Assembly (NCBI GenBank): GCA_035516965.1
Contig: DATIZR010000116.1
Coordinates: 1 to 64,000 of the forward strand
Direction: 5' to 3'
DNA: 64,000 nucleotides
From: Nitrospirota bacterium
GTDB taxonomy: Bacteria; Nitrospirota; UBA9217
The notes beneath the pieces were generated by a model. That model worked only from the letters and a program-made list of their open reading frames with translations. It did no database searches and was not told the DNA's origin. Within the stretch, counting starts at the first letter, position 1; each line of letters opens with the position of its first letter. A program made the position numbers and the translations under genes. Of the stretch, positions 51,282-54,834 are shown in pieces.

Positions 51282-51701
51282 ACCACAAGCTTGCAGGCGG
51301 GCAATGCATTTCGTCCGCACGCATCTACTGCTCTTTCGTTCCACCTTGCATACAATTCTTCCTTGGTCAGATGGGGCTCTATCCCAAAGAGCTTCAGGAG
51401 CGTAAATTCCGTGCGCTGCCTTCCTTCCTGAGCGGTCGGTTCCCATCTCTGATACAAGGCTTTCTCCATTGAGCATCGCCTGATGTTCCTTCCTTCTCCT
51501 CTTCTTTGCCTGTGCCTGAACAGTGCTATATTTGTTCATAAAAAAATCCCCGGTTTTAATAATGCGAAATATTTCAAAAAATATCATTGTTTCTTAGCCT
51601 CGAAGGTGGATAATGAAGGTTGGGCGCTTACAAGCCTATGCACATCCTCAGACTTTATTATTAGTGCGGGCCTGGCGTGCAATTCTTATAAAGGAGTGAA
51701 C
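51282..51701. other. Region without a clear gene (420 bases); possible decayed minus-strand gene
   Basis: Minus-strand frames 51540-51460 (KYSTVQAQAKKRRRKEHQAM) and 51469-51254 (EFTLLKLFGIEPHLTKEELY) each look partly coding but lie in different frames. This is compatible with a frameshifted small gene, though neither has a good start signal. The plus-strand part from about 51600 is the leader of the radical SAM gene. Confidence 0.3.
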
Positions 51702-53213
51702 ATGAAATTACTGCTCGTCTATCCCAAGTACCCCACTACCTTCTGGAGTTTTAAATACGCATTGAAGTTCATCTCCAAGAAGGCGAGCCTGCCGCCGCTC
51801 GGGTTGTTGACCGTGGCCGCCATGCTGCCTGCCGAATGGGAGCAGCGTCTTGTCGATCTGAACGTGAAGCATCTGACCGATGCCGATCTCCGCTGGGCCG
51901 ATTACGTGCTGGTGAGCGCCATGTCCATCCAGAAAGAGTCTGCCCTGTCGGTCATTGCCCGGTGCAAAGCGCTCGGTGTCAGAGTGATCGCCGGCGGACC
52001 GTTGTTCACGGCCAACCCCGAAGACTTCGACGGCGTGGACCATCTGGTGCTGAACGAGGCTGAGATCACGCTCCCGCTCTTCCTCGAGGACCTCGGGAAT
52101 GACAAGGCGAAGCGTATCTACACCTCTCCCCAATGGGCAAATCTCGCTGCCACGCCCGCGCCCCGGGTCGACCTGCTGAACATGCGCAAGTACGCCTCCA
52201 TGAACATCCAGTATTCCCGGGGCTGTCCCTTTGACTGCGACTTCTGCAACATCACCGTGCTCTACGGCCGCGTGCCGCGAACGAAGAGCGCGGACCAGGT
52301 CATCGCCGAGCTCAATGCGCTCTATGCCCGTGGCTGGCGGAGAGGCGTGTTCATCGTGGACGACAATTTCATCGGTAACAAGGGCAAGCTCAAGAAGGAG
52401 GTGCTCCCGGCCCTCATCGGATGGATGGAGGAGCGCAAACACCCCTTCACGCTGTATACCGAGGTTTCGATCAACCTTGCAGACGACGAGGAGCTGATGA
52501 GGCTCATGGTCAAGGCGGGGTTCGACCAGGTGTTCGTGGGCATCGAGTCACCGAACGACGAAAGCCTCGCGGAATGCAGCAAGCTCCAGAACCGGAACCG
52601 CGACCTTATCGCAAGCGTCCGGAAGATCCAGAAGGCCGGCCTCGAGGTCCAGGCCGGGTTTATCGTGGGGTTCGACAAGGACCCAGCGTCGATCTTCGAG
52701 CGCCTGATCGGTTTCATCCAGGAAAGCGGGATCGTGACCGCCATGGTGGGGCTCCTGAACGCGCCGCACGGCACCAAGCTCTACAGCCGCATGAAACAGG
52801 AAGGACGCCTTACGAGGGCAGCGACCGGCGACAATACGGACTTCTCCATCAACTTCGTCCCGAAGATGAGCAGCGAGGCCCTGCTGAACGGCTACCGCTC
52901 GATCCTCAACACGATCTACTCGCCGAAGCACTACTACGCGAGGGTGAAGAAGTTCCTCAAGGAGTATCGCCCCGCAACAAAGGCGCGGAGCTTCCGACCC
53001 CAGTTCAGCTACATCATGGCCGGGTTCAAGTCCGTGGTGCGCCTCGGCATTATCGGACGGGAGCGGTACTACTACTGGAAACTGTTCTTCTGGTCCCTGT
53101 TCAGAAAACCGAGGCTCTTCCCGCTCGCCATCACCCTGTCTATCTACGGGTTCCATTTCCGCAAGGTATTCGCGAGTCATGAGAAGACGCTGAGGGCGGC
53201 CGCGCTGAGGTAA
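51702..53213 (+). CDS. B12-binding radical SAM protein (DUF4070 C-terminus)
   Basis: The 503-residue enzyme begins KLLLVYPKYPTTFWSFKYALKF. Residues 1-150 form a cobalamin-binding Rossmann-type domain (PPLGLLTVAAMLP, WADYVLVSAMSIQKES, RVIAGGPLFTANPEDF). The radical SAM core has CPFDCDFC, and VDDNFIGNKGKLKKEVLPAL and FVGIESPNDESL are typical internal blocks. The C-terminal part (AMVGLLNAPHGTKLYSRMKQEGRL and beyond) is DUF4070. The same architecture occurs in HpnP, the hopanoid C-2 methylase, and many methylases of unknown substrate, so a B12-dependent methyl transfer is likely but the substrate is not known. AAAGGAGTGA precedes the ATG at 51702. It lies directly upstream of the cobalamin riboswitch but is not controlled by it. 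Confidence 0.9.
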   Translation: MKLLLVYPKYPTTFWSFKYALKFISKKASLPPLGLLTVAAMLPAEWEQRLVDLNVKHLTDADLRWADYVLVSAMSIQKESALSVIARCKALGVRVIAGGPLFTANPEDFDGVDHLVLNEAEITLPLFLEDLGNDKAKRIYTSPQWANLAATPAPRVDLLNMRKYASMNIQYSRGCPFDCDFCNITVLYGRVPRTKSADQVIAELNALYARGWRRGVFIVDDNFIGNKGKLKKEVLPALIGWMEERKHPFTLYTEVSINLADDEELMRLMVKAGFDQVFVGIESPNDESLAECSKLQNRNRDLIASVRKIQKAGLEVQAGFIVGFDKDPASIFERLIGFIQESGIVTAMVGLLNAPHGTKLYSRMKQEGRLTRAATGDNTDFSINFVPKMSSEALLNGYRSILNTIYSPKHYYARVKKFLKEYRPATKARSFRPQFSYIMAGFKSVVRLGIIGRERYYYWKLFFWSLFRKPRLFPLAITLSIYGFHFRKVFASHEKTLRAAALR

Positions 53214-53319
53214 AGAAAACTTCGCCGTGTCATGCCTGCGCCGGCACTCCCCCGCAGGCAGTTTAAACTTTTGCCGAATAAGTTCCGGCGAGCCCGGGAA
53301 TCGAGGTGATGACGGAAAG

Positions 53320-53516
53320 ACTGATAGAGGAATACTGATTTTTCTGGAGTATGATTTCAGGGAAGAGGAGTGAGAATCTCCCGCTGCCCCGCAGCCGTGA
53401 AGGGAACGAAAGCCCAACGATAAGCCACTGTCATGAGTAACATCATGGTGGGAAGGCGGGTGAGTAGGATCGAGCCCGAAGCCGGAAGACCTCAGGAACG
53501 ACTATTCTCGCGGGAG
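53320..53516 (+). promoter_or_regulatory. Cobalamin (B12) riboswitch
   Basis: The conserved core is clear. GGGAAGAGGAGTGAGAATC is followed by CCCGCTGCCCCGCAGCCGTGA (53381-53400 region), then GCCACTG (53424-53430), GGGAAGGCGGG, and the B12 box AGCCCGAAGCCGGAAGACC (53473-53491). All elements are in the usual order. Outer boundaries are approximate. The downstream ATG lies 37 bases after the B12 box. CTCCCGC (53378-53384) in the core is exactly complementary to GCGGGAG (53510-53516), which contains the Shine-Dalgarno sequence, so control is probably translational. Confidence 0.93.
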
Positions 53517-53527
53517 GAATGACAACC

Positions 53528-53758
53528 ATGAACTACAAGTTTTTCACGCACCAGGACTGCAGTTTTTATCCCTGCCACAACCTTCAGGAATGGAAATCCT
53601 GCCTCTTCTGCTGGTGTCCGCTGTATCTGCTCGATTGCGAAGGAGACTTCACCTACCGGAACGGCGTCAAGGACTGCTCGGACTGCGTCATTCCCCACAC
53701 GGAGGAAGGATACGATTACGTCCTCGGAGTGGTGACCAGCAAGGTCTATGGCCGGTAA
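53528..53758 (+). CDS. Cysteine-rich small protein under cobalamin riboswitch control
   Basis: The 76-residue protein has eight cysteines: QDCSFYPCHN, KSCLFCWCPLY, LDCEGDF and DCSDC. This is the Cys-rich small domain (PF04071 type), a presumed metal-binding module often found in cobalamin-synthesis loci. The riboswitch shows that it is made when B12 is scarce. A role in cobalt or corrinoid handling is a reasonable inference; no enzyme activity is indicated. The ATG at 53528 was preferred because GGGAGGA (53512-53518) is correctly spaced from it, whereas the in-frame ATG at 53519 touches the Shine-Dalgarno sequence. No cobalamin biosynthesis gene is adjacent. Confidence 0.82.
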   Translation: MNYKFFTHQDCSFYPCHNLQEWKSCLFCWCPLYLLDCEGDFTYRNGVKDCSDCVIPHTEEGYDYVLGVVTSKVYGR

Positions 53759-53937
53759 AACGTAAAGCAGGCAAGGCGTTTGGTAGAAGACCGATTGTCT
53801 GCGAGAAAATCGTCCTTCCCTTGTTTCACCTTACCTCACCTCATTACCAAAAAGCGCACAAACAGAAAAACGGCTCAGTAACGGGCGTCTTCTAAGATCT
53901 ATACGGTGTCTTCCGCGATCGGGGCGAAGAGCGGACG

Positions 53938-54699
53938 CTAGCGGACAAAGTAGACGAGGGAGACGATAAGGCCGACAGCGATCACGATGCGCCGCAGCGC
54001 GGTGGGTTTGATCCTGCCGGCCATGCGCCCGCCCAGGGCGCCGCCCGCCAGGGCGCCGATGGCCATGATCAGCGCCGCGATCCACAGGACCTGGCCGGAA
54101 AAAAGAAAGAAGATCGCCGCGGCGATGTTGATGCTGAACGAGATGGCCTGTTTCAGCGCATTCAGCCGGGTGAGCGAATCATCCAAGACGAGCCCGATCA
54201 CGGCCAGGACCATGACGCTCACGCCTGCTCCGAAATACCCCCCGTAGACGGCGGCGGGGGCCACGGGCAGTATCGCCATTGCTTCGTGCACGTGCCTGTG
54301 TCCTGTTCCGCTCATGCGGCCCGTCACCCAGGCGCGTATCCGGTCCTGGAACGCCAGCAGGACAACAGCGAGCAGGATGAGGTAAGGTATCAGGAGGCGG
54401 AACGTCTTGTCGCTCGTGTGCAGCAGCAGGACCCCGCCCGCGATCCCGCCCAGGACGCCCGAGGGAAGGAGATACCAGAGCCGCTTTCCCTGCCCCCTCA
54501 GGTCCTTCATCTGCGCGAAGGTCGCTCCGAGATACCCGGGGCAGAGAGCGACGGTGTTCGTCACGTTCGCGGCCACGGGAGGCACGCCGACGGCGGTCAG
54601 CATCGGGAACGTGATGAGCGTTCCTCCGCCGGCAAGGGCGTTCACGAGGCCGCCGGCAACGGCGGCCAGTCCTATGAGGAGAAGATCGAATCCCTGCAT
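53938..54699 (-). CDS. TauE/SafE (TSUP) family membrane permease
   Basis: The 253-residue permease has about eight hydrophobic helices. It starts [34 protein letters not shown]; the second motif is [21 protein letters not shown], so both halves of the TSUP repeat are present. It is only distantly similar to the TSUP protein at 44839-45597 and resembles the YfcA-like branch. The anion transported is unknown. The ATG at 54699 fits the first helix; in-frame upstream extensions are Arg-rich and unlikely. Confidence 0.88.
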
Positions 54700-54834
54700 G
54701 AGGGGCCGGTTCCTTCGAGAGCGCTTCGGCCGAGGAGCGGCCGGGTAGATGGCCCGGCGCCGCTGCCGGTTCTCTCGCACTTGCTTGTAAGGAAGTGGAC
54801 GTGATACGGGCCGGGACAGAAAGGGGAGCGCCCC

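Follow-up and report, generated by a model that had tools for sequence, protein, structure and literature searches.

The targets of cobalamin riboswitches recorded in a regulon survey fall into the synthesis of B12, the transport of B12 and cobalt, and B12-independent isozymes (PMC3766115). The locus described here lies within a window of 64,000 nucleotides (positions 1 to 64,000 of contig DATIZR010000116.1, from the Nitrospirota bacterium assembly GCA_035516965.1), by which we mean the whole stretch of DNA that was analyzed. Its riboswitch is like the other members of RF00174 in its full-length match to the family model, its B12 box, and its position in the leader just ahead of a start codon, but, unlike the surveyed cases, its target is a single uncharacterized small protein. 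This protein shares with the rest of the PF04071 family the match to the Pfam profile and is set apart by being the sole target of a riboswitch. Two further parallels are suggested by proteins of B12 metabolism. The first is CobW, a COG0523 G3E GTPase that acts as a cobalt chaperone and possesses a CxCC motif (PMC7689651). The likeness is one of analogy only, in that both would be accessories of B12 metabolism with a metal site and a Cys motif; the PF04071 protein is just 76 residues long, lacks a GTPase domain, and occurs in genomes without a corrin-ring marker. The second is CobU, the bifunctional adenosylcobinamide kinase/guanylyltransferase (PF02283), which is fused to PF04071 in two genomes (G075 and G206) and encoded behind it in six others; in the window's genome, PF04071 stands alone in its protein and cobU is found separately, on contig C43.

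Cobamide salvage is widespread, and, to our knowledge, how free corrinoids are held and transferred between the transporter, the adenosyltransferase, and CobU is poorly known. We also know of no function assigned to the PF04071 family, and in the literature searched there was no paper naming PF04071, COG2158, or the cysteine-rich small domain together with cobalamin, an earlier mention being possible. The riboswitch itself is of a known kind; its target is uncharacterized and has good links to B12 metabolism. Governed by a B12 riboswitch of its own, fused to CobU in relatives, and accompanied by a cobalamin neighbor at 42 of 49 Nitrospirota loci, the PF04071 protein presents a small and testable candidate, and a Pfam family that had no functional hypothesis thereby gains one.

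The riboswitch and the gene behind it

The original prediction of a cobalamin riboswitch with a complete core and B12 box, for which a covariance-model search was proposed as the check, is upheld by a significant match to RF00174 on the forward strand at positions 53328 to 53510 (70.1 bits against a gathering score of 31.5; E value of 2.9e-15). The match spans the model at full length (positions 1-189) and includes the B12 box in the variant form AGCCGGAAGACCT. No other Rfam family scored above threshold in a search of the whole window, and the element is a plain, ordinary member of RF00174. In an alignment of 10 leaders, double changes preserving the pair were observed at 5 of 35 predicted pairs; as the remaining predicted pairs are mostly invariant, the covariation support for the aptamer is modest. 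Energy-based folding of the window leader alone gave a stability not above that of shuffled sequences, and hence it is the covariance model that carries the case for the riboswitch. We also considered a classical L5-L13 kissing interaction and rejected it: 8 pairs are possible in the window, but the interaction is absent as a conserved feature in the other leaders.

The gene controlled by this element (positions 53528 to 53758, forward strand) starts with an ATG 17 bases past the end of the aptamer and extends over 76 codons. Residues 2 to 70 of its product align with positions 1 to 72 of the profile of PF04071, a zf-like, cysteine-rich small domain (76.1 bits against a cutoff of 27; E value of 2e-21), which is its only match in Pfam; NCBIfam yields none. 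In an alignment of 26 sequences, the window protein begins with MNYKF and its relatives with MNYKYF; this shared first residue favors the start at 53528 over an in-frame ATG at 53519, which is probably unused. The eight cysteines counted in the original prediction (C11, C16, C25, C28, C30, C37, C50, and C53) are all invariant in this alignment, as are two histidines (H17 and H57). Together, these residues would be enough for two four-ligand metal sites; we infer that they bind metal, and the metal is probably zinc. A PDB sequence search with the window protein recovered no significant match among solved proteins, and its predicted structure, with a mean pLDDT of 60, is too poor for use.

Just as had been claimed, the PF04071 gene at the window locus has no cob, cbi, or transporter gene behind it. 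The next gene downstream, annotated as coding for a TauE/SafE protein (53938-54780), is on the opposite (minus) strand, and the target of the riboswitch is accordingly a single cistron. On the other side, a forward-strand gene for a radical SAM protein with B12-binding and DUF4070 domains (51696-53213) ends 115 bases before the riboswitch; its presence beside PF04071 is not conserved in relatives.

The Shine-Dalgarno sequence (53512-53518) is embedded in an element of the form AUUCYCG(A/C)GGGAGGA (53504-53520, forward strand), which is kept in 12 leaders even though the linker after the B12 box differs in both length and sequence. This element is presumed to be the expression platform. A small, weak hairpin over the Shine-Dalgarno sequence is possible in 12 of 12 leaders (-4.1 to -7.6 kcal/mol), and simple consensus scans of positions 53180 to 54000 detected no terminator-like or promoter-like site. 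The window leader thus appears to belong to the translational type, with control of the PF04071 gene most likely being exerted at translation initiation. By the standard logic of riboswitches, the aptamer would bind cobamide when it is plentiful, with the consequent masking of the Shine-Dalgarno sequence, whereas the PF04071 protein would be made when cobamide is low, as would befit the B12-scarcity factor of the original prediction. The leaders of G155 and G395 instead finish in a GC-rich stem and a U run (read by eye), which suggests transcription termination as the mode of control in these genomes. Terminator-like stems followed by U runs were noted by eye in the leaders of PF04071-cobU-cobT-cobS operons at L068 and L070, unlike the translational-type leader of the window.

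Genomic neighborhoods of PF04071

A first scan of genome contigs recovered 28 relatives, 19 from Nitrospirota and 9 from Clostridia. The riboswitch is immediately upstream in nine of the Nitrospirota relatives and 1 to 3 kb upstream in another nine, with cbiM lying between the two where annotated; the only one of the 19 without an upstream riboswitch (L031) is found behind purL. In G009, a genome of the window's family, PF04071 is encoded directly behind purL with no riboswitch (L083:8419-8652 and L031:5001-5234); the 1330-residue product of the gene preceding the L031 copy had been guessed to be CobN but is actually PurL.

When the survey was widened to 396 Nitrospirota genomes, PF04071 was matched in 45; one match fell below the cutoff, and the riboswitch search covered the remaining 44 genomes. 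The 42 of 49 loci cited above are those with at least one cobalamin neighbor, defined as a riboswitch, cbiM, cobU, a btu-type transporter, or a B12-dependent ribonucleotide reductase (NrdJ). This count includes two weak cases, without which it is 40: G291, where the riboswitch is 7 kb upstream and the transporter was scanned for its ATPase alone, and G387:C78, where only a fragment of the gene is present, at the end of a contig. Among the 49 loci, cbiM is a neighbor in 10, cobU in 8, and NrdJ, within a few kilobases, in 13, where one NrdJ member was called by profile and the others by BLAST clustering with that member. A riboswitch lies no more than about 220 bases upstream of the gene in 14 loci, which come from six families, and no more than 3 kb upstream in 8 more, where it heads cbiM operons that include the PF04071 gene. 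Given about 115 riboswitches in the 44 genomes, we estimate that roughly one gene per thousand would be directly behind one by chance; hence, the pairing is far beyond the chance expectation, even when kinship is allowed for. A survey of this pair in other genomes had been suggested along with the original prediction, and it finds the pairing to be conserved; the accompanying inference that the protein is part of B12 metabolism is likewise corroborated by these neighborhoods and by the fusion to CobU. As PF04071 is missing from 351 of the 396 genomes, it is not essential for the use of B12.

The layout seen in the window, with a lone gene behind the riboswitch, is found with an intact frame in seven genomes of the window's family and in members of two other families. 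It stood at the window locus but fails as a general rule, since related families have cbiM before or after the gene or cobU-cobT-cobS after it. The order riboswitch-zf-cbiM (zf denoting the PF04071 gene) is found in L032/G353 and L067/G216, the leader being very similar to that of the window, whereas the order riboswitch-cbiM(-N-Q-O)-zf is found in one clade, which has full support on the tree. In G155, G163, G395, G151, and G289, the order is zf-cobU-cobT, mostly with cobS in addition, and in G251 it is zf-cobU, with the contig end cutting the locus. In the two genomes with the fusion, CobU and PF04071 constitute one protein of 253 residues, with cobT after its gene and cbiB and cobQ before it. 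In G291, the PF04071 gene comes after those of a btu- or iron-type ABC transporter. The NrdJ-linked copies group together on the tree and are mostly from one family, which raises the possibility that this context is peculiar to a lineage. A gene with a PF13557 (Phenol_MetA_deg) domain was also noted among the cbiM and PF04071 genes at three loci (L032:6651-7448, L020:5273-6055, and L027:5287-6057); its product is perhaps an outer-membrane protein and might provide a route for metal across the outer membrane.

Outside Nitrospirota, the link to B12 is weaker, as several of the contexts in Firmicutes are unrelated to it. In a sample of this group, PF04071 was detected in 16 of 199 genomes, and a cobalamin riboswitch was nearby in 1 of 17 loci, where it lies behind the PF04071 gene. 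B12-related contexts include a clostridial operon with PF04071 between cbiC and cbiD (cobQ-cbiC-zf-cbiD; L132), the order cobQ-cbiC-zf (L121), and a clostridial copy placed just before a riboswitch-cbiK-...-btuC cluster (L036). Certain clostridial versions are extended at the N terminus by about 118 residues (L120:4948-5541, L123:5072-5647, and L124:5373-5936), a segment with no Pfam match in L120, the one scanned. The gene preceding that of PF04071 in L120 codes for a BMP/PnrA-like nucleoside-binding protein, and L115 too has a BMP gene in the vicinity; it is conceivable that this neighborhood is linked to the uptake of alpha-ribazole.

Corrinoid salvage and the role of the PF04071 protein

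The window's assembly, which is rated 97.7% complete, contains one copy of PF04071 and four cobalamin riboswitches. The other three riboswitches are on contig C61, where a tandem pair precedes cobT-btuF-btuC-btuD and the third precedes btuB-tonB, with cobQ, metK, and ahcY further along. The tandem elements (77248-77422 and 77498-77713, minus strand) are 75 bases apart, and a similar tandem pair is present on contig C36 of G007. At the start of contig C43 are cobU-cobS and a gene for a histidine phosphatase, possibly cobC. The genome thus codes for CobA, CobU, CobS, CobT, CobQ, and BtuBFCD, while the corrin-ring enzyme CbiC was not found in it. Going by this one marker of ring synthesis, the organism looks like a corrinoid salvager, and a corrin ring to be charged with cobalt is probably absent from it. 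By the same single marker, applied to draft genomes, CbiC is missing from 20 of the 44 PF04071-bearing genomes, that of the window included. A role for the PF04071 protein as a stand-in for a missing adenosyltransferase was also considered and is ruled out by the presence of CobA in the window's genome.

What is directly established is the riboswitch, the gene and its linkage in genomes, and the existence in relatives of a fusion with CobU. As its relatives are encoded next to B12 genes or fused to their products, the PF04071 protein is probably an unrecognized helper in the handling of B12. Taking these findings together, we propose, at roughly even odds in our own estimation, that the riboswitch-governed protein is a cobamide accessory with Cys/His metal sites, which serves the late salvage or nucleotide-loop stage around CobU. 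In such a capacity, it would not deliver cobalt but handle ready-made corrinoids; it could, for example, hold adenosylcobinamide or pass it on. A late corrinoid role is favored over one in cobalt delivery by the 20 of 44 genomes without CbiC and by CobU being both the fusion partner and the closest operon partner; it would also account jointly for CobU, the transporter, NrdJ, and the salvagers, in which case the cbiM operons would merely share the regulon. A more specific version, which we advance tentatively, is that PF04071 is a corrinoid factor working with CobU on salvaged cobinamide-type corrinoids and has its own riboswitch owing to its importance in salvagers. The original prediction had allowed for either a cobalt or a corrinoid chaperone; the corrinoid half fits better with a salvager genome and the fusion to CobU, and the cobalt half is disfavored by the missing CbiC.

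The part of that proposal concerned with cobalt nonetheless deserves consideration. As a metallochaperone or buffer for cobalt, this Cys/His protein would take Co(II) from a CbiM-type transporter and pass it to a cobaltochelatase. The ten Nitrospirota loci with cbiM would suit such a role equally well, with the gene ending the riboswitch-cbiM(-N-Q-O) operons of one clade and preceding cbiM in others, and one clostridial copy is close to a CbiK-type cobaltochelatase gene. However, CbiC, again as a single marker in draft genomes, is missing here and in 19 other genomes bearing PF04071, CobU acts after the insertion of cobalt, and CobW, a cobalt chaperone already known, belongs to the COG0523 GTPases (PMC7689651), whose domain the PF04071 protein lacks; we therefore see this role as rather unlikely. 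An alternative centered on redox chemistry would have an iron-sulfur cluster or thiols reduce the corrinoid cobalt for adenosylation or keep NrdJ-like enzymes active. Its CxxCxC...C...CxxC pattern could carry a cluster, and the 13 loci near the B12-dependent reductase and the CobU neighborhood are compatible with this, but no ferredoxin-type match emerged from the Pfam and PDB sequence searches and the NrdJ-linked copies form one cluster on the tree, mostly of one family, making such a partner distinctly unlikely.

A zinc-finger-like regulator of the cobamide regulon, which would bind nucleic acid or protein and never touch a corrinoid, has in its favor the small size of the protein, its zinc-finger-like residues, and its association with many different kinds of cobamide genes; the covalent fusion to CobU, a pathway enzyme, would be unusual for a regulator, and we consider this possibility quite improbable. 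Finally, the lone riboswitch and zf might be a meaningless remnant of a riboswitch-zf-cbiM operon that lost its transporter, given that L032/G353 and L067/G216 retain precisely that operon with a very similar leader. Yet the conservation of the lone form across three families, with an intact frame and invariant residues, points to continued selection, and there is very little likelihood that it is a mere leftover. Among the named control genomes, the domain is present in two, those of Methanocaldococcus jannaschii and Methanosarcina acetivorans, the latter of which is genetically tractable.
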